IMG/VR virus record: IMGVR_UViG_3300037264_003623
Coordinates: 1-64,000 of that record
Length of the DNA stretch: 64,000 nt
DNA from: a virus
Reading direction: 5' to 3' (one strand)
Each line of letters begins with the position of its first letter. Positions within the stretch are counted from its first letter, which is position 1. A program made the position numbers and the translations under genes. Of the stretch, positions 4,091 to 24,477 are shown piece by piece. The notes beneath the pieces were generated by a model. The model had not been told where the DNA came from, made no database searches, and was given only the letters and a program-made list of their open reading frames with translations.

Positions 4091-7000
4091 ATGGCTCGCA
4101 AGGGAATCAGCATCCCCAGGCTCTTCTGCCCTGGGGACGATCCATACTCTCTGTTCAAGTGGGTCAGGAAGAACGTCGATGCGAAGGACAAGGATGGGAA
4201 GCCGGTGACGTCCCACGAGGGGGTGGAGGTCCCCGACTTCTGGAGTGACAGTGCAGCGTTCATCCTCTCGGACAAGTACTTCCGAGCAGCCCACGGGTCA
4301 TGCCCGAGGGAGATCTCCCTCAAGCAAACGCTCGACCGGGTGGTCAACGAGATCGTCAAGTGGGGGGTCGAGCACGGCTACTTCGACAAGGCTAACGGAG
4401 CCGTCTTCGGGAACGAGCTCCGGGTGATGATCGCGTCCCAGCGGTTCTCGTTCAACAGCCCCGTCTACTTCAACGTGGGGTGCATGGACAAGCCGCAGTG
4501 CGCCGCGTGTTTCATCCTCGTCGTCTACGACGACCTGGGCAGTATCTCCGCGATGGTCCCGGTCATCGTGCATGTGTTCTCGCATGGGTCGGGATGCGGG
4601 TTCAATCTGTCCCTGCTCCGTGAGATGGGTGCCCCCCTCTCCAGGGGTGGGGTCGCGTCCGGGCCGAAGTCCTTCCTGCTCGGCTACAACTCCTTCGCCG
4701 GGATCATCAAGTCGGGCGGCATCCAGCGCAGGGCGGCCATGCTCGCCAGGCTGGACGACACTCACCCCGATGTCCTCGACTTCATCGAGATGAAGAGCGT
4801 CGAGGAGCGGAAGGCCCGCGCCCTTGTTCGGAAGGGGTACACGGTCGAGGAGGCGTACAAGACTGTTGCCTTCCAGAACGTGAACCTCTCCATCGGGATC
4901 TCCGACGCATTGATGAAGGCGGCCCTGGAGGGGAAGGACTGGGTGCTGAAGTCCGTTCTCACGGGGAAGACGGTCAAGGTCATCAAGGCGATGGACCTTC
5001 TCGACATGATCGCTCACGGGGCTCACTTCTGCGGGGACCCCGGCATCCAGTTGGACGATACGATGAACCGGGGCAACCCCCTGATCCGGGTCTCGAAGAT
5101 CCTCTCTACGAACCCGTGCGTTGTCGGGTCCACTAATGTCTACGTCAAGGAGGGGAAGAAGACGGTCCTCAAGCGGGTAGACCGGATCAAGGAGGGGTCC
5201 GCCAAGATCCTCAGCTACGACTTCGAGAAGCGGAAGCCGGTGTTCGCTAAGGCGACCTTCTTGGGGAAGACGCGGCAGAACGCCAAAGTCGTGAAGTTGA
5301 AAACGGCGAAGGGGGAGATCCGCCTGACACCGGATCACGAAGTCATGACGAGCAGGGGGTGGATCAAGGCGGCGGACATCCAGAAAGGGGACAAGATCTA
5401 CCGGGTGAAGGTGATAGGAGGAGTTTCAGGAGAGTTTGGAGATTCGCAGACATACCCCGGCAGAACGAGCCAGGTCGTCGTCCCCGATGGCAATGTCGAA
5501 GAGATCGAGGTCCTGGGGATGGAGGAATGCGAGGAGGGGGAAGATGTCTACGATTTCAGCGTCCCGAAGCATCATGCCTTCTTCACGGAGGAGGCTCTTG
5601 TCTCGAATTGCGCCGAGTTCGTCTGCATCCCCAATACCGCATGCAACCTAGCCTCCATGAACCTCGCCATGTTCTACCGAGACGGGGCGTTCCAGCACGA
5701 GGAGTTCCGCCACGCGGTCAGGATTTCCATCGTGGCGCAGGACATCCTCGTGGGGCTGAGCGGGTACCCGACGCCGGAGATCGACAAGAACTCGAACGAG
5801 TACCGGCCGCTGGGCCTCGGGTTCACGAACCTCGGTGGGATGTTCATCAAGATGGGCATCCCCTACGACAGCGACCAGGCCAGGATGCTCGCCTCGGCCG
5901 TCTCCGCCGACATGACGGCGACGGCGTACCAGGCATCGGTGGACATCGCCAAGGTCCTTGGCCCCTTCTCCGGGTTCGAGTACAACCGGAAGGCGATGCT
6001 CGCCGTCTTGAAGGCGCACAAGAACAAGTTCAACGCCCTCGCGGACGCCCACAGCGGGGCAGCAGACCTCGACGGGATATCAGACGAGTGGGAGAAGGTG
6101 TGCCAGGAGGCGGTGAAGCACGGGATCAGGAACTGCCAGGTGACGCTGGTGCCCCCCGCGGGGACGATCTCGAACATCCTCGACTGCACGACGGCTGGGA
6201 TCGAGCCGATCCTGTTCAGCGCGACCAAGAGGAGGCTCGACGCGGGCGGGGAGCTGATCGTCCCCTCGTTCGAGATCGACCGGGGCCTGGAGGGTCTCGG
6301 GTACTCGAAGGAGGAGAGGGCGATAATCACGAAGTACATCGAGTCGAACGGGACCCTCTCCGGGGCACCGGTGGTCAAGCCGCAGCACCTTCCCGTCTTC
6401 GACCCGGTGTACCCCCTGAAGGTCGGGGACAGGCGGGTGTCGGCAATGGCCCAGATCCAGATGATGGGGGCGGTCCAGCCGTTCATCTCCGGCTCCATCT
6501 CCAAGACGATCGGCCTGCCGGAGTCGGCGAGCGTGGAGGAGGTGAAGGAGACCATCATCCAGGCGTGGAAGCTCGGCCTGAAGGCGATCTCCTTCTATCG
6601 CTCCAACTCGAAGATGAGCCAGCCCCTCGTGAACGCCATCCTGGAACAGGAGAAGATGGAAGAGGAGGAGGGGGGTCCCGCGAGAAGAGTCATGCCGCAG
6701 GAGGTCAGGGCGCACATCCACCGCGGGGTGGTCGGGCCGGGTTCGACGTCGGAGACGAAGCTCTACATCATCCCGGGGGAGCGCGAGGACGGCACGCTTG
6801 GGGAGGTATTCGTCACGCTCGCCAAGGAGGGGTCTGCCCTTCGCGGACTGGTGGACGCCCTCATGACGGCGGTCTCCATCGGGCTCCAGTACGGGGTGCC
6901 CCTGGAGGTCTTCTGCAAGAAGTTCATCGGGACCAAGTTCGAGCCGATGGGGTGGACTAGGAACGAGAAGATCAAGTTCGCCACGAGCCTGGTGGATTAC

Positions 7001-8455: not shown

Positions 8456-11045
8456 CATGGGACTCGTCGCCCACATCGTCCACGGCGGATGCTTCGGCGT
8501 CGTCGTGGAGCAGGGGGTGGGAGGCGAGCACCTGTTCGCGGAGGCGAGGGTCGCCTTCGACTACATCCTCGTCCACTACTCGAAGTACGGGAAGGTCCCG
8601 GACGCCGCGACGATCGAGAGGGACACGAAGGTGGTGGTTCCTCCCCTCTCCGACGTGAAGGAACCGGTCGGCTACTACATCGACAAGGTGAAGGAGCGGG
8701 CCAGGGACAACCTTGCGAAGGAGGGCGTCAAGAGCCAGGTCCGGGCGATGGAGTCGGGCCGGACGCAGGAGGCGATCGACGCCGCAGCCAAGCTCTCCGA
8801 GGACCTCGCCAGACTGAACCTCCAGTCAGACCCGGTCGACGACTGGACGAGGCGCACCGAGGATCGGGAGGCCGAGTACAACAAGGCGAAGCTGATCGGG
8901 ACCGGGCTCATGGGCGTCGAGACGCCGTGGCCCGGCCTGAACGAGCTGACGCAGGGGATCTGTGAGGGCGACTTCTGGGTGATGTGTGGCAGACCTGGAG
9001 AAGGAAAGTGTGTCGCCGCCGGGACGCGGTTGGTCGATCCGGAGACCGGGATTGTGCTACCGGTCGAGGATGTCGTGGCCCGAAGGCGCCGGGTTCTGAC
9101 GTTCGACCGGGGGGATGGTCGGGTGCGTCCCATTACTCCTGTGGCATGGGTGTCTACGGGGAGGAAGGAGTGTCTGGCCGTCACCGTGGGTATCGGGAGG
9201 AAGCTACTCGTCACGTCGGAGCACCCGCTTCTGACGAGCCGGGGCTGGGTGAGGGCGGACGAGATCGCGGTGTCCGACAAGGTGGTCTGCGCCGCGAGGA
9301 TCCCGGAACCCGAGATGCCCGTGGCGTTGCCGGATTGCGACGTGGATCTTCTGGCGATTCTGCTGTCGGAAGGTAGTTATAGCGGGAATCATGTCGGGTT
9401 CTCGACGTCCGATCCGGTCTTCCTGGATGTCGCGAGGAAGGCGGCCGAGGGGCTTGGGATGAGGGTCGTCTATAGGGGGATGTACGATTACGATTTCGTG
9501 GGGAGGATGGTAGACAACGGGAAGAGGTCGATCGCGAGGGCTTTCCTTGAAAAGTACGGCCTCGGGCGTCGCATCGCGAGGAAGAAACGTATCCCTGATG
9601 CCATATTTTCCATCCCGAATCAGCATCTATCGAGGTTCCTGACCGTTTTTCTGATGGCCGACGGGTACGTGTCCCAGAAGGAGACGGGGGTGACGCTCGC
9701 GTCCGAGGGGATGATCGACGACATCCAGACATTGCTGCTCAGATTCGGTGTCGTCGCCAGGAAGAGATACAAGCGGTCCCGTTGCGGGGGGAAGGAGTTC
9801 GACGCATGGAAGCTCCGGGTGGATTCGTGGTGCTATCCCAACGTCAAGGGAGCTCTTTGCGGGATGTGGGGGGAGAAGGGGAGGCGGCTGCGGTCTCTTG
9901 AGGCGAGGGGGACTAACGTGGATAGCGTAGATGTCTCCGACAGGATGCGGTCCCAGATGGCCGATGCCTCCGAAAAGTATCGGAGGTCGGACGGCCCGAT
10001 CGCTGAGAGGCGCGGCCTGTTCAGGGACGCAGGGAGAAGGCTCGGACATGAGAAGGCCGAGGGACGGGACTTTATGGACAGGCATGGGTCCGGGAGGGTG
10101 TCGAGAAGGCTCTTGGCGGCGATCGTGGAGCAGGCGGACGGCCTTCTTGATGATCTGACGTGGATGACGAGCACGGACATAATGTTCGACGACGTCGTGT
10201 CCATCGAACGAGTCGGGGAGATGGACGTGTATGACATGAGCGTCGTCGGGACGCACAACTTCGTGGCCGAGGGGATCGTTTGCCACAACACTTGGTTCTT
10301 GGTGAAGATGGCGATGACGGCGTGGGCCAAGGGCGAGATTGTCCTTTTCATCTCGATGGAGATGAACAAGAGGAAGATCAAGCGGCGCATGGACGCCGTC
10401 CACCTGAAGCTGAACTACCACGACTTGAAGAGGGGGAAGCTCGGGATCGGGATCGAGGAGGAGTACATCAAGGCACTCAAGGAGCTCCGTGAGAAGCAGG
10501 CGGTGAACCCGCTCTATGTGGCCTCGGCGAGGAACGTCCGGCGCATCCGGGACATCGCCGTCCTGGTCCGTCTGTTCAAGCCCAAGGTGGTGTTCCTGGA
10601 CGGGCTCTACAAGCTCCGGCCCCCGAACATCGGGGTGTCCTCCTACTGGGAGCGCATCCAGGCGATCGCCAACGACCTCCAGCTCCTCGTCGGGGACATC
10701 GACACCAGGATGGTGGCGACGACTCAGCTCCGGCGCGAGGGCGGGAAGAACATGAAGAGGAAGCGCGGGGCGTCGGTGGAGATCGGGCTGGAGGACATCG
10801 CCTTCGCGGATGCCATCGGGCAGAACGCGGACGTGGTTCTCGGATTGGGCTCGACGAGGAGCATGAAAGACGATCACGAGCAGGTCCTCCAGGTGGTCAA
10901 GAACCGCGAGGACGAGAGGGGGGCGTGGCGCGTGAAGTTCGACCCCGGCTTCGGTGCCTTCGACGAGATCGAGCCCTACGAGCCCCAGACGACCCCGGAC
11001 GAGGACAGTGGGGGGGACGACGGGACGGTGGAGTACAGCCGATGA
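8442..11045 (+). CDS. DnaB-like replicative helicase, intein-containing
   Basis: 867 codons; about 440 aa after splicing. RecA-fold helicase of the DnaB/SF4 type. An N-terminal helical domain precedes GVETPWPGLNELTQGICEGDFWVMCGRPGEGK, whose P-loop continues with T after the intein. Walker B-like VVFLDGLYKL, then a QL-type motif (MVATTQLRREGG) and GLEDIAFADAIGQNADVVL follow. The intein (9009-10289) splits the P-loop Lys-Thr pair, so unspliced protein cannot bind ATP. The stop overlaps the primase start (ATGA). Acts at the replication fork with the loader (2431) and primase (11042). Confidence 0.88.
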   Translation: MVSIDMGLVAHIVHGGCFGVVVEQGVGGEHLFAEARVAFDYILVHYSKYGKVPDAATIERDTKVVVPPLSDVKEPVGYYIDKVKERARDNLAKEGVKSQVRAMESGRTQEAIDAAAKLSEDLARLNLQSDPVDDWTRRTEDREAEYNKAKLIGTGLMGVETPWPGLNELTQGICEGDFWVMCGRPGEGKCVAAGTRLVDPETGIVLPVEDVVARRRRVLTFDRGDGRVRPITPVAWVSTGRKECLAVTVGIGRKLLVTSEHPLLTSRGWVRADEIAVSDKVVCAARIPEPEMPVALPDCDVDLLAILLSEGSYSGNHVGFSTSDPVFLDVARKAAEGLGMRVVYRGMYDYDFVGRMVDNGKRSIARAFLEKYGLGRRIARKKRIPDAIFSIPNQHLSRFLTVFLMADGYVSQKETGVTLASEGMIDDIQTLLLRFGVVARKRYKRSRCGGKEFDAWKLRVDSWCYPNVKGALCGMWGEKGRRLRSLEARGTNVDSVDVSDRMRSQMADASEKYRRSDGPIAERRGLFRDAGRRLGHEKAEGRDFMDRHGSGRVSRRLLAAIVEQADGLLDDLTWMTSTDIMFDDVVSIERVGEMDVYDMSVVGTHNFVAEGIVCHNTWFLVKMAMTAWAKGEIVLFISMEMNKRKIKRRMDAVHLKLNYHDLKRGKLGIGIEEEYIKALKELREKQAVNPLYVASARNVRRIRDIAVLVRLFKPKVVFLDGLYKLRPPNIGVSSYWERIQAIANDLQLLVGDIDTRMVATTQLRREGGKNMKRKRGASVEIGLEDIAFADAIGQNADVVLGLGSTRSMKDDHEQVLQVVKNREDERGAWRVKFDPGFGAFDEIEPYEPQTTPDEDSGGDDGTVEYSR
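9009..10289 (+). mobile_element. Intein with LAGLIDADG endonuclease in helicase (427 aa)
   Basis: From CVAAGTRLVDPETG to ...GIVCHN, between extein GRPGEGK and T. Block B reads LLVTSEHPLLTSRGW and block F/G reads VYDMSVVGTHNFVAEGIVCHN. The two LAGLIDADG-type helices are LLAILLSEGSY and LTVFLMADGYV. The insertion point inside the Walker A motif is a classic intein site. Terminal His-Asn is intact. Confidence 0.93.
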
Positions 11046-14277: not shown

Positions 14278-14354
14278 AGCGGGATTGAGGAGCTGGTTAC
14301 CTCGCCGGGCTCATAATCCGGAGCAGGTCGGTTCGATTCCGACTCCCGCTACCA
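14278..14354 (+). tRNA. tRNA-Met (CAT)
   Basis: Acceptor AGCGGGA pairs with TCCCGCT, the anticodon loop has CAT, the T-arm is GTCGGTTCGATTCCGAC, and ACCA is encoded at the 3' end. Could be elongator Met or, if modified, Ile2. Two tRNA 3'-end-like remnants and two HNH genes follow downstream. Confidence 0.88.
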
Positions 14355-14718: not shown

Positions 14719-15375
14719 TTATGATACCATGTTCGGGAGGCGATGGCAAGAGGGTTCGACTCCGGCTCCCGCAACCAGTTGCTCCCCAGGGATGGGGTGA
14801 TCGAATTCCCAATGATGATTGGGGCATAGGGCCACAAGGTTGTTGGCCGCGTTGATCTTGGTGAGTTTGGTTTCAGGGGGGAAATCCTTGACCGGTTTCT
14901 TGTGGCAGACTTCCGCATGGCGGGAGTAACTACAGACCTCACAGACGAGTTTTGGATGGGTTTTGAGGTAGACAGCGCGGGCATGAGAACGGATCACACT
15001 ATGAGAGGAACTTGGGGTATTCCTCGAAAAGATGTCTGCCTTCGTGAGGCGGGATGCGCGGCAGTCGTCGCACACCTCCCGCTTGAGGGTTTGTCCGGAA
15101 GGCCGTCTTTTCCTGGGAATCTCTTTTCCACAAGAGCGGCAGATGTCGTGCAACACTTTTCTGACTCGCTTGGAGGCATGAAAGAGGGCGTTGCACTGCT
15201 GATTGCAGAACCGTTTCACTTTGACGTCGGAAACCTTCTGCCCGTCGCGAACGGGGATGGGCTTCCCGCACGACAGGCAGATAACAGGGTTTGCGAGATA
15301 TCGGGCGATGGTGGCGGCGCGAAGTTTCAGTGCGGTTGCTTTTCCACCGGCTTGCTGGCCAGAAAGGGAAGGCAT
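14719..15375 (-). CDS. HNH endonuclease, minus strand
   Basis: 218 aa from ATG 15375 with GGAGG 7 nt upstream. Several zinc-type Cys pairs (CLSCGKP, CNQQC, CRSCGKE, CDDC) are followed by a C-terminal HNH core CEVCSYSRHAEVCHKKPVKDF...NNLVALCPNHHWEFD. Its C-terminus (AGAGVEPS) is encoded antisense to a tRNA 3'-end-like sequence at 14731-14777. AT-rich relative to neighbours. Opposite in orientation to all phage genes nearby, so an acquired mobile gene. Confidence 0.85.
   Translation of the reverse strand: MPSLSGQQAGGKATALKLRAATIARYLANPVICLSCGKPIPVRDGQKVSDVKVKRFCNQQCNALFHASKRVRKVLHDICRSCGKEIPRKRRPSGQTLKREVCDDCRASRLTKADIFSRNTPSSSHSVIRSHARAVYLKTHPKLVCEVCSYSRHAEVCHKKPVKDFPPETKLTKINAANNLVALCPNHHWEFDHPIPGEQLVAGAGVEPSCHRLPNMVS
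14731..14777 (+). pseudogene. tRNA 3'-end-like remnant
   Basis: Ends GGTTCGACTCCGGCTCCCGCAACCA, with the acceptor-like CTCCCG preceded at the 5' side by CGGGAG. No complete D or anticodon arm and an imperfect T-stem. Interpreted as a displaced tRNA 3' end left between the two HNH genes. Confidence 0.5.
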
Positions 15376-15520: not shown

Positions 15521-15593
15521 GGGCGGATAGCTCAGCCGGTAGAGCGCCACGCTGATAACGTGGAGGCCGGGCGTTCGACTCGCCCTTCGCCCA
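15521..15593 (+). tRNA. tRNA-Ile (GAT)
   Basis: Acceptor GGGCGGA pairs with TTCGCCC (one G-T pair), the anticodon arm is CCACG-CTGATAA-CGTGG with anticodon GAT, and the T-arm is GGGCG-TTCGACT-CGCCC. No CCA encoded. It lies directly upstream of the polymerase gene. Confidence 0.92.
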
Positions 15594-15637: not shown

Positions 15638-18600
15638 ATGGCCGAGGAGAAGAGGATCCAAGACGCCAAGGGCAGGCTTCTCACCCTCCTGCGTAAGGGG
15701 GGCGGCGACGAGGGCCTGCGCTCGCTCCTGGAGTCGGACCCGGCGGCGGTTCAGGCCGCGGCCAGGCGAGACGAGGCGAGGAGGAAGGGGATGTCCAACA
15801 TCGAAGAGGCGGTGGCCTCCCTCACGAAGGCGGCGGCGTTCTCTCTGGACCTGGAGACGGACGGGCCGTCGAGGGCAGAGGCGACCGACCCGCTCCGGGG
15901 AAAGATCGTCGGGGTCTCGTTCGGGGTGGACTTCAAGCCGGGCTCGTCGTGGTGGTTCCCATTCGAGGGGGGAGCCGCGGCGGGGGAACAGGTCTTCTCT
16001 CAGGTCGAGGTATTCCGGGCCGTCCAGCCAATCCTTCTCGATCCTGCCAAGACACTCATCGGGTCCAACTGCAAGTTCGACCTCATGTTCTTGAAGATGA
16101 ACGGGGTGGAGGTCAGGAACAGGCTGTTCGACACGGTGGTCGCCGACTGGATGATGAACGAGAACAACCGGCGGCACGGCCTGAAGGAGATCGTCAAGAG
16201 GGAGTTCGACGTCGAGCTGGAGAAGTTCACGACGGCGTGGGCGTCGAGGGACCTCGTGGGGGGGAGCCGGTTCTCTGAGTACGCGGTGAACGACGCGAGG
16301 TATGCCTTCAAGCTGTGGCGCGACGTCCACATGAAGTTTCTGGAGGCGAAGGGGAGCGAGAGGCTCAGCAAGCTCTTCCACTCTGTCGAGATGGAGATCG
16401 TCCACATCTTCATGGAGGCCGAGATGGAGGGCGTGTGCATCGACCTCGCCTACATCGCGGCCCTCAAGGAGAGGATGGAGACGGCTAAGAAGGAGGCCGC
16501 CGACCGGGCGTTCTCGATCATGGGGCGGCCCTTCAAGATCAGCTCCCCGGAGGAAGTCAGCATCATCCTCTTCGGGGTTCCGCCGGAGGAGGCGCTTAGG
16601 TCCGCGATGGAGTCCAGGGAGCGAAGGAAGCCCAAAGCCGCCAAGAAGGACCTAGTCGAGAAGTTCAACACAAAGGGGCTGTTCGGTGCCCCGAAGGGCA
16701 TGTTCCCGGTCCCCCTGGACAGGAAGGGGAGATCGGTCCTCCCGGGCGACAACGGGTTCTACTCCACGGACGACTCGGTTCTCAATGGGTACGACCATCC
16801 CTTCGTCAAGGCCCTTCTCGATTACCGGAGCGCGAGCCAGACGCTCAAGTTCTTCGTGTACGCCTACATCGGCGGGGACCCGGACGATCCCAAGAAGGTC
16901 GGGTCCGTTCGTGACGGGCGGGTGTACCCCGATTTCCATCAGGCAGGCACGATCGCGGGCCGGTTCTGCGTTTCGGGAGATACGGTGCTGGAGACATCGG
17001 TTGGGATTTGTCGTATTTCTGATTTAGAATTGCCTAATAATCAGCAAGTATCTATAATCACTCATAGAGGACAGCCCCGGCGGATCCTCGGCAAGTACTA
17101 CCTCGGGAGGGAGGAGATGTTCCGGGTCGTGCTCGATAACGGGTCGAGCATCGCCGGGACGAGGGGGCATCGGGTTCTGACGTCGGGGGGATGGAGACAT
17201 CTCTATGAGTTGCGGTGCGGCTCCAGGGTGCTTAGTTCCTGTGATTCGGCTCGACGGGGCGGTGTACAAGGGCAGGCGGCATGTGTTGCCGGAGGACGTA
17301 TTCAGGAAGCTGCTGGAGGAGGAGGATATCTGGGAGGCGGAGCTCCTGCGGAAGTACCGGATAGGGAGGCATGTCTGGTATGCCTCGAAGTATCTGTACG
17401 GGGAGAAGTACGGGGAGCAGATTCGGCGACTGCACCGGAATCGGCTTTCGATGGCCTTGACCGGGAACCGGAATGGGGAGCGGAAACCGGCCAGGATGGT
17501 CCCCAAGGAGATCCTCCAGTCATTTCTGGATGTGGGGTACAATCTTCCGGAGATGGCGCGGAGGTTGGGGATGAGCGAGTTTCTGATTCGGAGGAATCTT
17601 TCGCTTCATGGATTGGCTCGGACGGGGCAGTTACCTCGGCACATGCAGGCGACGGACTTGGAAATGGTTCGTCGGCTGGACACTCTTTCCCCCGGGCTTA
17701 TGGAGGCGGCGAAGCAATATCACGAGAGGCCGAAGGAGTTCTACGACGCCCTGTATGTCGCCTTCGCGAGGCTTGTCCAGCATCTCTGGTTCATCCAGGG
17801 ACTCTCGGGGGGCTATCGGTATCTAAGGGACCGGAAGCGTCTCCCGAAGAATCATGTTTGTTGGAGCATGAACAGGGCGGAGCTGCAACTATCGATGGCT
17901 CTTCTCGACGCGGGGATACCCCATGTTCGCCAGTTCTTCATGGAGAGGTACATGGTGGACTTTGCCTTTCCGGAGGCGAATCTACTGGTGGAGGTGGACG
18001 GGGAATACCACAAGGCGGACGCGGTTACGAAATGTCGGGACGTCAGAAAGGCGGCGAAGATTCAGGAACGGGGATGGGGGGTTCTGCATTTCACGACGAA
18101 GCAAGTCGAGACGAATCCTGGGGAAGTGGTTTCGTCTATCCGACGGCGGCTGTCGTCAGCATTGAGTCCATAGGCGAGCAGGACGTATGGGACATAGAGG
18201 TGGAGGAGGACCACTCCTTCATCGCCAATGGTTTCGTGAACCACAACTCGTGCAGCGAACCCAACCTTCAGCAGGTAAGTGGCAAGAAGGGCCTGGTCAA
18301 GCCGATGTTCGTCCCGCCTTCCGGACATAAGTTAGTAGTTGGTGACTTCAACCAGCTCCAGTTCCGCCTGGCGGGGCACTACGCCAAGACATGGTTCGGG
18401 AAGTCGAACATCGCGGACGCCTACCTGGCCGGGATGGACCTTCACACGAGGACGATGAGGGAGCTCGGGTTCGACAAGAAGTACCCGGACCCGAAGGAGG
18501 CACGGAAAGAGGCCAAGAGGGTCAACTTCTCATTCATCTTCGGGAGGGGCGCCTCGTCGTTCGCCGAGGAGAACAAGCGTCCTTCCGCCGAGGCCACGAT

Positions 18601-19090
18601 GTTCTACAACGGGTTCCACAAGTCGTACCCCGAGATCCGTTGGTGCTCGAACAAGTGCCGCAAGGACCTCTGCGAGAAGGGATATGTGGAGTCGATCCTC
18701 GGCAGGCGGAGGAACTTCCCGCAGCACAAGGGCAAGGACCCCAACGCATACGAGAAGAAGGAGGAGGACGGCGGGCCCCGGAGCAACCTCTGGTGGGATG
18801 GGTGGGTGGCGTGGAACGCGGTGGTCCAGGGCGCGGAGTCGGATCTGGTTCGGATCGTCATGCGGAACATCTACCGCGAGATCCTGGAGCGGCGGAAGGC
18901 AGATCCGAGGTGGAACACGGTCAAGATGCTCATTCAGGTCCACGACGAGATCGTCTATCAGGCGCCCGACGAGATCGCCGAGGACATGGCGACGTTGATG
19001 CGCGAGAAGGGGTCGAACTTGCTCACCCTAAAAATCCCCATCATCTTGGACGTCGGTGTGGGAGTGACGTGGGAGGCTGCTAAGAAATGA
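15638..19090 (+). CDS. polA: DNA polymerase I-type (3'-5' exo + pol), intein-containing
   Basis: Family A polymerase. The frame is open from 15419, across the tRNA-Ile; ATG 15638 is taken as start (ATG 15593 overlaps the tRNA end). Exonuclease motifs: LDLETDGP (~residue 70), GSNCKFDLMF and EYAVNDARYAFKLW. Polymerase motifs: GRF/SCSEPNLQQ, motif A VVGDFNQLQFRLAG, O-helix KRVNFSFIFGRGA and motif C QVHDEIVYQAP. No 5'-3' exonuclease domain, as usual for phage replicases. A 427-codon intein (16967-18247) interrupts the conserved GRF^S motif; spliced length is about 723 aa. The stop overlaps the next gene by ATGA. Confidence 0.93.
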   Translation: MAEEKRIQDAKGRLLTLLRKGGGDEGLRSLLESDPAAVQAAARRDEARRKGMSNIEEAVASLTKAAAFSLDLETDGPSRAEATDPLRGKIVGVSFGVDFKPGSSWWFPFEGGAAAGEQVFSQVEVFRAVQPILLDPAKTLIGSNCKFDLMFLKMNGVEVRNRLFDTVVADWMMNENNRRHGLKEIVKREFDVELEKFTTAWASRDLVGGSRFSEYAVNDARYAFKLWRDVHMKFLEAKGSERLSKLFHSVEMEIVHIFMEAEMEGVCIDLAYIAALKERMETAKKEAADRAFSIMGRPFKISSPEEVSIILFGVPPEEALRSAMESRERRKPKAAKKDLVEKFNTKGLFGAPKGMFPVPLDRKGRSVLPGDNGFYSTDDSVLNGYDHPFVKALLDYRSASQTLKFFVYAYIGGDPDDPKKVGSVRDGRVYPDFHQAGTIAGRFCVSGDTVLETSVGICRISDLELPNNQQVSIITHRGQPRRILGKYYLGREEMFRVVLDNGSSIAGTRGHRVLTSGGWRHLYELRCGSRVLSSCDSARRGGVQGQAACVAGGRIQEAAGGGGYLGGGAPAEVPDREACLVCLEVSVRGEVRGADSATAPESAFDGLDREPEWGAETGQDGPQGDPPVISGCGVQSSGDGAEVGDERVSDSEESFASWIGSDGAVTSAHAGDGLGNGSSAGHSFPRAYGGGEAISREAEGVLRRPVCRLREACPASLVHPGTLGGLSVSKGPEASPEESCLLEHEQGGAATIDGSSRRGDTPCSPVLHGEVHGGLCLSGGESTGGGGRGIPQGGRGYEMSGRQKGGEDSGTGMGGSAFHDEASRDESWGSGFVYPTAAVVSIESIGEQDVWDIEVEEDHSFIANGFVNHNSCSEPNLQQVSGKKGLVKPMFVPPSGHKLVVGDFNQLQFRLAGHYAKTWFGKSNIADAYLAGMDLHTRTMRELGFDKKYPDPKEARKEAKRVNFSFIFGRGASSFAEENKRPSAEATMFYNGFHKSYPEIRWCSNKCRKDLCEKGYVESILGRRRNFPQHKGKDPNAYEKKEEDGGPRSNLWWDGWVAWNAVVQGAESDLVRIVMRNIYREILERRKADPRWNTVKMLIQVHDEIVYQAPDEIAEDMATLMREKGSNLLTLKIPIILDVGVGVTWEAAKK
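16967..18247 (+). mobile_element. Pol I intein whose endonuclease is in another frame
   Basis: Starts CVSGDTVLETSVG after GRF and ends EEDHSFIANGFVNHN before SCSEPNLQQ. Splicing blocks A, B (GTRGHRVLTSGGW) and F/G are in the polymerase frame. The ~300 codons between them read as low-complexity Gly/Ser-rich sequence with no stop, while the +1 frame encodes a complete 322-aa endonuclease (17205-18173). Thus the intein frame appears to be kept open across an overprinted gene. Cis-splicing of the whole 427-aa insert is possible; a split arrangement restarting at an internal ATG is not excluded. Confidence 0.85.
17205..18173 (+). CDS. Vsr/DUF559-like homing endonuclease nested in Pol I intein
   Basis: 322 aa in the +1 frame relative to the polymerase. 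ATG 17205 has GGAG 8 nt upstream. The middle part has HTH-like stretches (NLPEMARRLGMSEFLIRRNL). The C-terminal ~100 aa match the PD-(D/E)XK/Vsr-type DUF559 pattern: ELQLSMALLDAGI, YMVDFAFPEANLLVEVDGEYH, then RDVRKAAKIQERGWGVLHFTTKQV. Its stop overlaps the start of the intein C-terminal block. Vsr-like endonucleases are known from split inteins in fractured genes; here the host frame is not visibly fractured. Probably homes into the polA GRF site. Confidence 0.85.
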   Translation: MSCGAAPGCLVPVIRLDGAVYKGRRHVLPEDVFRKLLEEEDIWEAELLRKYRIGRHVWYASKYLYGEKYGEQIRRLHRNRLSMALTGNRNGERKPARMVPKEILQSFLDVGYNLPEMARRLGMSEFLIRRNLSLHGLARTGQLPRHMQATDLEMVRRLDTLSPGLMEAAKQYHERPKEFYDALYVAFARLVQHLWFIQGLSGGYRYLRDRKRLPKNHVCWSMNRAELQLSMALLDAGIPHVRQFFMERYMVDFAFPEANLLVEVDGEYHKADAVTKCRDVRKAAKIQERGWGVLHFTTKQVETNPGEVVSSIRRRLSSALSP

Positions 19091-22071: not shown

Positions 22072-24477
22072 ATGGGAGACAAGCTTCAGGACCTCTTCAA
22101 CGGCGTCAGGAAGCAGCACGGGAAGTTGAGCGTCAGGAAGGCATCGGAGCTGGAGGGGGGGATCCCGAGGATCCCCACCGGCATCTTCTGGCTCGACGCC
22201 GACATGGGCGGCGGGATTCCCATCGGTCGGATGACCGAGGTTGTCGGCCTCAAGTCGTCGGGGAAGTCTTCCCTCATGGCGAAGATCGTCGCCAGCGCCC
22301 AGCGGCTCTGCCGGAAGTGCTTCCGCCCGATCACGGAGTGGGAGGAGGAGGAGCGGGAGCGCAAGTCCGTCTCCGTGGATGTGGCGACCGGCGAGGTCAT
22401 CGAGAAGATGGTCCCCTACATGGTGAAGGTCGCGAAGGACTGCGCCAATAAGTGCAGGGAGGATTCCGACGGGAAGAAGAAGAAGCACCCGGGCCGGATG
22501 ACCGTCCTGTGGGTGGATCAGGAGGGCTGCGTCTCGGAAGACAACGAGATCCTCGACCCGATGACGGGTCGAATCGCAACGGTGGGAGAGTGGGTTCGAG
22601 GCCAGGGCTGCAACGTCGAATCATTGGCGGGAAATCGCCTTTCCGTGGTCCCGATTTCCTCGAAGTGCGATTCTGGTATCCGTCCGGTTTTGCGGATCTT
22701 CACGGCGACCGGCTGGGTGGAAGTCACTCCGAATCATCCTCTTCTCGTTTGGAGAAGAGGGCAAACGTGGATTCCTGCGGCTGAAATTCAGCCAGGGGAC
22801 TACATCGCTCGTCCGCGATGGAGCTCGTTCGAGGGGGGGCGGCATCCTGATGCGGAGGTCGCGGGCCTTCTGGGGTATATGCTCGGAGATGGCGGGATCG
22901 CGGAATCGGCCAGTAGTCCTACGATCACAAACAAGGGTGATCCAGAGATCATGCGCCGGTTTTCGGAACTGGTTTCTTATTTTGGGTGCAAGATCAAGAA
23001 GTACGATGACCGGCACTATCGGATCATCGGGGAGGATAGTAACGGGAGTAGCGGGGCCAATAAGGGGCGGAACGGGGTGAAGAACTGGTTTCGAGAGAGG
23101 GGGATGCTCGTTCCATGCTACGAGAAGTTTCTACCGGAGGAGGTATTCCAGTGGGACAACATCTCCGTCGGGAGGCTTCTTGTTGGCCTGTTCATGACGG
23201 ACGGGTCCGTCAACATTGCTAGGGCATCGGCGGTTATCGGGTTCACTTCTAGGCGGTTAATTTTGCAAGTTCGGCACCTTCTCTCCAGATTGGGAATCTT
23301 GGCGCACTTGAGCATCTACCGGTACAAGAATCCCCGCCACCGGGATCAGCATACGCTTGCTATCAATGGGGTGCCTAATCTTCAGCGATTCAGGGAGTTC
23401 GTTCCCCTGTATGGAGAGAAGGGCTCGAAGCTCGATTCCTGGTGTCTTTCGGAACGGAAGCAGATTCATTATCCCGACGATTTCTACCTTCCTGGATACA
23501 GGAACGCGATGTGGAGTCATCGGGGGGCGTTCGAGAACGAATCCGATGTATGGTGGGATAAGGTGGTGAAGATCGAGCCGAGAGGGGAGAAGCATTGCTG
23601 GGACTTTGGGGTTCCCCCGCATAAGAACTTCGTTGTCAACGATTTCGTGGGGCACAATACCTTCACCCCGGACTTCTACAGGAACTTCGGGGTGGACTGC
23701 GACGACGTCTACCTTTCGTCTCCCGAGACGGGGGAGCAGGCGGTGGACCTCATCGATGCGGCCATGCGGACCGAGGAGGTGGACCTGATCGTGGTGGACT
23801 CCGTGGCGGCCATGACCCCGAGCGTGGAGCGTGAGGCGTCTGCCGAGGACCTCCAGGTCAGCCTCCAGGCGAGGAACGTGAACAAGGGGCTCCGGGTGTG
23901 GACGGCGAGCCTCAACGCCCTCGGCAACCGGGAGGGGAACGACTGCACCCTGCTTCTGGTGAACCAGCTCCGCACGAAGATCGCTTCCTTCTACACCGGG
24001 TACGTCAAGCCGGGTGGGGTGGGACAGGAGTTCGCGACCAGTGCTGAGCTCTTCCTCAAGCAGAAGGACTACATCCTCGACACGAAGGGCGCTACCGTGG
24101 CGGAAGAGGTCGAATACCTGGTCGACAAGAACAAGGTCGGGACTCCGAAGGGGGTGGGGAGGTATAGGATGTGCCTCAAGGCGCACCCGGCCTTCCCGGG
24201 GATGCCCGACCCCTTGCGGCTGCCGGGCGACACATGGGACGACGCCACGGTGCTCAGCGTGCTAAGTGAGCGCGGGTTCCTGGCCGAGGACCAGAAGACC
24301 AAGGAGGTGATCCTCTTCGGCCAGCGGTTCCCAGACCAGCAGGCCCTCCAGATGGCCCTGTTCCAGAAGGGGGACCTCTACTGGAAGGCGCGGAATGCCC
24401 TGATCCAGTTGATCGTCAACACGCCGAGCGACGGGAAGCTCAAGGAGAAGAAGAAGAAGGGCGACAAGGAGGAGTGA
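22072..24477 (+). CDS. recA: RecA-like recombinase, intein-containing
   Basis: 801 codons; about 424 aa after splicing. ATG 22072 with GGAGG 5 nt upstream. RecA fold: GIFWLDADMGGGIPIGRMTEVVGLKSSGKSS (Walker A ~residues 58-66), an unusual inserted Cys-pair region (CRKCFRPITEW), TVLWVDQEG before the intein, and after it VDLIVVDSVAAMTP (Walker B), LVNQLRTK and a C-terminal domain. Mediates strand exchange. The intein (22528-23658) lies at the position equivalent to RecA's FIDAE region. It differs from bacterial RecA in length and in the extra zinc-like insertion, closer to large-phage RecA/UvsX types. Confidence 0.88.
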   Translation: MGDKLQDLFNGVRKQHGKLSVRKASELEGGIPRIPTGIFWLDADMGGGIPIGRMTEVVGLKSSGKSSLMAKIVASAQRLCRKCFRPITEWEEEERERKSVSVDVATGEVIEKMVPYMVKVAKDCANKCREDSDGKKKKHPGRMTVLWVDQEGCVSEDNEILDPMTGRIATVGEWVRGQGCNVESLAGNRLSVVPISSKCDSGIRPVLRIFTATGWVEVTPNHPLLVWRRGQTWIPAAEIQPGDYIARPRWSSFEGGRHPDAEVAGLLGYMLGDGGIAESASSPTITNKGDPEIMRRFSELVSYFGCKIKKYDDRHYRIIGEDSNGSSGANKGRNGVKNWFRERGMLVPCYEKFLPEEVFQWDNISVGRLLVGLFMTDGSVNIARASAVIGFTSRRLILQVRHLLSRLGILAHLSIYRYKNPRHRDQHTLAINGVPNLQRFREFVPLYGEKGSKLDSWCLSERKQIHYPDDFYLPGYRNAMWSHRGAFENESDVWWDKVVKIEPRGEKHCWDFGVPPHKNFVVNDFVGHNTFTPDFYRNFGVDCDDVYLSSPETGEQAVDLIDAAMRTEEVDLIVVDSVAAMTPSVEREASAEDLQVSLQARNVNKGLRVWTASLNALGNREGNDCTLLLVNQLRTKIASFYTGYVKPGGVGQEFATSAELFLKQKDYILDTKGATVAEEVEYLVDKNKVGTPKGVGRYRMCLKAHPAFPGMPDPLRLPGDTWDDATVLSVLSERGFLAEDQKTKEVILFGQRFPDQQALQMALFQKGDLYWKARNALIQLIVNTPSDGKLKEKKKKGDKEE
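22528..23658 (+). mobile_element. Intein with LAGLIDADG endonuclease in recA (377 aa)
   Basis: CVSEDNEILDPMTG to ...VVNDFVGHN, between extein VDQEG and TFTP. Endonuclease helices LLGYMLGDGGI and LLVGLFMTDGSV; block B VTPNHPLLVWRRG. AT-richer than the extein. His-Asn terminus intact. Confidence 0.93.

Follow-up and report, generated by a model that had tools for sequence, protein, structure and literature searches.

A predicted DNA polymerase intein with its homing endonuclease overprinted in the +1 frame, and similar inteins in other phages

The polymerase locus

The window studied here, 64,000 nucleotides (nt) of IMG/VR virus record IMGVR_UViG_3300037264_003623 (positions 1 to 64,000), carries a phage gene for a family A (Pol I-type) DNA polymerase that appears to be interrupted by an intein. 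Within the intein the same DNA is open in two frames of the same strand: the frame of the polymerase, which runs through without a stop, and a +1 frame that encodes a predicted homing endonuclease. The open reading frames (ORFs) and signals of the locus are as follows (a slash marks a splice border or a junction).

ATG 15638 to stop 19090, plus strand: family A (Pol I-type) DNA polymerase frame, 1150 codons, 0 internal stops
15638 to 16966, plus strand: N-extein with 3'-5' exonuclease domain (PF01612, E=4e-13)
16967 to 17233, plus strand: predicted intein N-terminal splicing region, CVSGDT... GTRGHRVLTSGGWRHLYELRCGSRVL, with Cys1 (weak TIGR01445 match; empty sites in relatives)
17193 to 17196, plus strand: GGAG, Shine-Dalgarno-like, 8 nt upstream of the endonuclease ATG at 17205
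17205 to 18173, plus strand: predicted homing endonuclease ORF, 322 codons, +1 relative to the polymerase frame (DUF559, composition, fold)
17231 to 17235, plus strand: joint 1, where 'CTT A' read as one step gives GSRVL/VPVIRLDG, a likely ancestral in-frame junction
17234 to 18148, plus strand: polymerase-frame filler over the endonuclease, 305 codons, 0 stops, rich in Gly, Glu, Asp and Ser
17874 to 18164, plus strand: predicted endonuclease catalytic domain (PD-(D/E)XK / EDxHD-like), with a predicted local distance difference test score (pLDDT) of mostly 76-96
18149 to 18247, plus strand: predicted intein C-terminal splicing region VVSIESIGEQDVWDIEVEEDHSFIANGFVNHN, ending HN/S (TIGR01443, PF14890)
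18248 to 19090, plus strand: C-extein of the DNA polymerase, +1 residue Ser (PF00476)

The polymerase model PF00476 matches across the whole frame (E=2e-54), and the intein occupies exactly 16967-18247 (427 codons), with the borders GRF/CVSGDT...FVNHN/SCSEPN and the C-terminal end FIANGFVNHN. The splicing residues are all present (C1, H426-N427 and S+1). At the C-terminus TIGR01443 matches above its cut-off (E=3e-7) and PF14890 below its own (E=3e-7), while the N-terminal splicing region was matched by phmmer to residues 45-94 of a RecA mini-intein. The polymerases of two related phages, L004 and L005, are intein-free at the same codon (e.g. GRF/TCSEPNLQQ), and the C-extein is 83% (L004) and 58% identical to theirs. 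We therefore predict that 16967-18247 is a cis-intein, and the first-pass annotation of this DNA, which had described a polymerase/intein frame open through the whole insert with splicing blocks at both ends, is borne out by the absence of stops, the TIGR01443 match and the empty sites in relatives.

The overprinted ORF had been described in the same annotation as a Vsr/DUF559-like endonuclease, with the intein frame above it reading as a low-complexity linker, and both descriptions agree with our results. Its C-terminal domain matches DUF559 (PF04480) with E=5e-14 (52.5 bits against a cut-off of 20.6), and residues D252, E263 and D265 are invariant in alignment A3. The best fold match of the predicted catalytic domain was I-Bth0305I (3r3p; Foldseek E=4e-4, template modelling score 0.83 normalised to the target), with Vsr among the matches at a lower rank. 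The product of 17205-18173 is thus predicted, from family match and modelled fold, to be a DUF559 / EDxHD (I-Bth0305I-like) homing endonuclease. Between 17235 and 18149 the G+C contents of the three codon positions are.62/.38/.74 in the endonuclease frame, as is typical of real genes of the phage, and.74/.62/.38 in the polymerase frame, which identifies the endonuclease frame as the coding one and the polymerase-frame residues as filler. The filler is disordered in a poor AlphaFold model.

As the first-pass annotation had suggested, we tested whether codon choice avoids stops in the polymerase frame. When the endonuclease codons were shuffled among equal amino acids 20,000 times, the polymerase frame contained 11.7 stops on average and at minimum 2, compared with 0 observed; the third frame has 7, matching expectation. 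In all genes of G000 (the complete record of the phage), G001 and G002, shifted-frame stops formed by the last base of a codon and the next two reach 0.55-0.67 of the codon-shuffled expectation, a background bias for which overprinting tests have to be corrected. After this correction the probability of zero polymerase-frame stops was 7e-5 to 2e-3. None of 229 comparable 305-codon segments had fewer than 2 stops, and in the seven other inteins of the phage the corresponding frame contains 2 to 17 stops. Polymerase-frame stops are avoided beyond chance, and the earlier idea that an overprinted open frame of more than 300 codons keeps cis-splicing possible gains support from the sequence.

Recurrence in other phages

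Viral contigs were scanned with intein C-terminal motifs, which gave 58 loci with the first motif and 120 with the second, 178 in all. Besides the intein of the window, 10 distinct inteins had an open host frame together with an endonuclease, in every case in the +1 frame. They are listed here with the observed host-frame stops and the shuffled mean; the zeros are not independent evidence, because the loci were picked partly for their open frame.

L094, DNA polymerase, HNH_3 in +1 frame: 0 versus 11.0
L077, terminase, HNH-like by eye, no Pfam match: 0 versus 9.1
L090, HNH_3: 0 versus 9.8
L080, HNH_3: 0 versus 2.4
L152, terminase, zinc-ribbon HNH: 0 versus 16.8
L164, terminase, zinc-ribbon HNH: 0 versus 8.8
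L165, terminase, zinc-ribbon HNH: 0 versus 14.8
L200, terminase, zinc-ribbon HNH: 0 versus 9.1
L211, terminase, zinc-ribbon HNH: 0 versus 13.8
L162, helicase, DUF559: 0 versus 7.6

The class was not recognised at any of 116 cellular intein loci. As the surveys relied on two or three C-terminal motifs and on inspection by hand, the prevalence figures are rough. Many long shifted ORFs in GC-rich survey loci were dismissed as chance on the basis of codon-position composition and content, and the overlap in the pYD6-A ribonucleotide reductase was set aside because its coding sequence (CDS) is a join of two segments, which fits an intron rather than an intein. L112 (2713-4113) and L113 (2504-3937, both in oriented coordinates), with a DUF559-like endonuclease in frame with the intein N-half and the C-half in another frame, are apparently split inteins of a different layout.

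A search that started from the terminase-intein endonucleases only (alignment A5), without the host frame as a criterion, returned 31 strong relatives, a few of them near-copies of one another, with G+C contents from 0.39 to 0.67. The terminase/intein frame was open over the endonuclease in 31/31, whereas 16-24 stops interrupt that frame, as expected, in L388, L391 and L392, which are distant relatives and free-standing. Host-frame stops numbered 0 in 18 non-redundant terminase-intein loci with clean endonuclease frames (187 expected), 0 in 7 isolate loci (49 expected) and 0 in the 25 non-redundant loci combined (about 235 expected). In all 325 pairs compared, identity was higher in the endonuclease frame than in the host frame, and nucleotide changes concentrate at endonuclease codon position 3 (e.g. 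46/41/136). The overprinted HNH endonucleases of these terminase inteins have diverged to about 30% identity and the host frames are all open, so that the two-frame state must be long-lived. The first-pass annotation had considered the arrangement a possible intermediate, a view that these diverged inteins speak against; the state looks stable. In one locus, L360 (2983-3852), the overprinted terminase-intein endonuclease carries a nonsense codon and the host frame is still open, as would be expected if an intein outlives its nuclease.

The arrangement is also found in cultivated phages. In 8/8 isolate-phage loci examined the host frame is open over a hidden +1 endonuclease, each time inside one annotated CDS: Vibrio phages CP-T1, 1.194.O, 1.088.O and 104E43.1, Pseudomonas phage MR14, Corynebacterium phage phi673, Gordonia phage Clown and Synechococcus phage S-EIVl. 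In three of these phages (CP-T1, phi673 and Clown) the family models assign the host frame to the splicing domain and the shifted frame to DUF559 or HNH. Beyond what the first-pass annotation had seen, these comparisons thus point to a recurrent class that is present in isolate phages, the two-frame use of one DNA stretch apparently recurring in many unrelated phages under the annotation of one ordinary gene.

Other inteins of the phage and the origin of the overlap

G000 (109,083 bases) contains eight inteins, in ribonucleotide reductase, a DnaB-like helicase, Pol I, RecA, three in one terminase gene, and the portal, the last with HNH. They lie at 5117-5608, 9009-10289, 16967-18247 and 22528-23658 in the window and at 85219-86388, 86761-87798, 88714-89871 and 104453-105511 in the rest of the record; the relative G001 lacks most of them. 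The third terminase intein has its DUF559 endonuclease in frame, likewise in G001. A free-standing ORF (14719-15375, minus strand) that has zinc-finger cysteines and resembles HNH at its end adjoins the polymerase gene on the strand opposite to its neighbours, between tRNA-Met (14278-14354) and tRNA-Ile (15521-15593).

A plausible origin of the overlap is a pair of compensating indels at the endonuclease borders, since one-base shifts at 17231 and near 18150 restore in-frame junctions. An ancestor with its endonuclease in frame would have acquired two indels at domain borders, +1 at 17231-17235 and -1 near 18150. Joint 1 was judged from the sequence and from comparison with the other inteins of the phage; near 18150, VVSIES would be rejoined by a shift of one base. 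The one-step reading of CTTA could not be extended to the whole gene, because the word also occurs in frame at other places.

Discussion

On the evidence above, the window very probably contains an intein used in two frames, with a polymerase precursor that is read through and spliced in cis and an endonuclease that is made separately and drives homing. Ribosomes would read the polymerase frame 15638-19090 straight through, and about 89 N-terminal and 34 C-terminal residues would form the Hint domain around an unstructured filler of 305 residues, after which excision in cis would yield active polymerase; the open frame and the splicing blocks are the observed basis of this step. Other ribosomes would start within the N-terminal splicing block, at the GGAG-8nt-ATG (17205), and produce a separate endonuclease of 322 residues, as the Shine-Dalgarno (SD) sequence, ATG, frame and fold suggest. 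If a co-infecting phage has a polymerase gene without the intein, this enzyme may then cut that gene at the conserved AGRF/S site, and repair would copy the intein into the cut gene. Within the overlap the polymerase frame would be constrained by stop avoidance only, with protein-level constraint on the endonuclease frame, as shown for relatives.

Independent initiation is the best reading of how the endonuclease would be made. Among the isolate phages, five helicase inteins have GAGGT or TAAGG 5-8 nt upstream of the endonuclease ATG, which lies where the N-terminal splicing block ends, and GGAGG or AAGGAG precedes the endonuclease ATG in L094, L077, L090, L152 and L162. Several observations weigh against the proposed scheme. 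SD enrichment in the terminase family is modest (56% versus 25% with at least 5 matching bases) and some cases are weak, the GGAG of the window is itself only a moderate SD, the N-terminal splicing block scores weakly (TIGR01445, E=0.034), and AlphaFold modelled the polymerase-frame intein too poorly to be informative (pLDDT 34). Neither viral contigs nor isolate phages yielded a close relative of the window endonuclease, so that the case of the window rests on one contig and on analogy; a plasmid search with it returned bacterial DUF559 proteins only. Its DUF559 relatives in alignment A2 (L033-L055) are free-standing, without an intein C-terminus by the motif used, and by the DUF559 tree the window endonuclease may or may not share an origin with the helicase group.

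The main rival explanation for the window concerns the way the endonuclease is made, namely programmed +1 ribosomal frameshifting at 'AGGGTG CTT AGT' (17225-17236), which would yield a fusion of N-extein, N-terminal intein part and endonuclease without independent initiation. The CTT-A, followed by a rare codon and preceded by an SD-like AGGG, resembles known +1 frameshift sites, and 11/11 overprinted survey cases are +1. Nevertheless, an SD and ATG occur at the same position in many relatives, the fusion would be devoid of the C-terminal splicing block, and the +1 preference has a simpler reason, as it may reflect that in +1 synonymous choice can avoid every host-frame stop; we regard frameshifting as improbable. 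There is a similarly small chance that the endonuclease is a relic in decay and that survivorship after a recent double frameshift accounts for the open polymerase frame. One copy of the intein is known, and openness could be a precondition for survival, but the catalytic residues and the coding periodicity are intact, pre-existing openness has a low chance, and other families attest to an old and stable architecture.

Trans-splicing of a split (fractured) intein, with the C-half translated from an internal polymerase-frame start (18032 or 18074), would fit the in-frame ATG at 18074 with AGGA 6 nt upstream and the Pectobacterium phage helicases that are split with the same geometry. However, a polymerase frame free of stops means that the full precursor has to be made, and stop avoidance would be pointless if trans-splicing sufficed, which makes this explanation very unlikely. 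We consider it very unlikely as well that two compensating sequencing or assembly indels disguise an ordinary in-frame DUF559 intein. The record is single and metagenome-derived, and joints 1 and 2 each resemble a one-base shift of a canonical intein. Against this, 72 gene queries that aligned 47 kb of the plus strand of the genome to relatives revealed no frame change in coding sequence, an accidentally open polymerase frame has the low probability given above, and isolate genomes have the same layout. Where G000 and G001 seemed to differ by frameshifts, the cause was spurious antisense ORFs; the sense-strand genes are free of frameshifts.

Taken together, we consider it likely that phages harbour a widespread, stable and as yet unnamed class of inteins, in which a separate +1-frame endonuclease gene is overprinted on a continuous intein frame, a state that would have been reached several times with different endonuclease families and that would allow the nuclease to be expressed independently without splitting the host gene. 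Three arrangements of inteins have been described: with an in-frame endonuclease, without an endonuclease after its loss, and split with a free-standing endonuclease between the halves. The two-frame intein would be a fourth arrangement, easily missed because annotation shows a single long host gene. It would uncouple the nuclease dose from the expression of the host protein, hints at a way of passing between the cis and the split state, and provides a large collection of same-strand overlapping genes, amenable to tests, where freedom from stops is the sole constraint on one of the two frames. As several members belong to isolate phages, the question is open to direct experiment.

Among known systems, fractured genes combine split inteins with free-standing EDxHD/Vsr-like endonucleases, a family represented by I-Bth0305I. 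The window shares with them the endonuclease fold and an endonuclease that is its own ORF between the intein halves, whereas fractured genes consist of two ORFs and need trans-splicing; in the window the host gene is not split, the frame 15638-19090 being unbroken. Fractured relatives had been mentioned in the first-pass annotation, and we indeed found them with the same geometry but broken host frames. A helicase is fractured by an intein in Pectobacterium phages Ymer, Amona, Abuela and Sabo (L058-L062), also in Koroua. As in the window, the helicase halves lie in one frame and an endonuclease, here LAGLIDADG, overlaps both in a shifted frame, but the host frame has 13 stops between the halves, and the gene is thus split. 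The in-frame DUF559 terminase intein of the phage itself and of G001, also an intein with DUF559, is the ordinary counterpart in the same genome; unlike in the window, its endonuclease is fused in frame as in classical inteins.

Beyond the ShiLan domain, our literature search, for which most subscription papers were outside the scope, retrieved nothing on inteins with the endonuclease in another frame. In the nearest published case, the ShiLan domain, a methylase insertion that lacks a splicing domain contains an out-of-frame HNH; the insertion is thought to remain in the protein, and no ribosome binding site is detectable (PMC11855218). Both systems hide a homing endonuclease in another frame of an insertion that is open in the host frame. 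In contrast to ShiLan, the window endonuclease is surrounded by what appears to be a real intein with its splicing blocks present and is preceded by an SD, and the two-frame class spans several host genes and endonuclease families. Also comparable with the window are the inteins of Gordonia phage Clown (gp5), Synechococcus phage S-EIVl, Corynebacterium phage phi673 (gp43) and the Vibrio and Pseudomonas phages, which have the same continuous host frame and +1 endonuclease; these overprinted terminase and helicase inteins reside in other host genes and carry HNH or another DUF559 branch.
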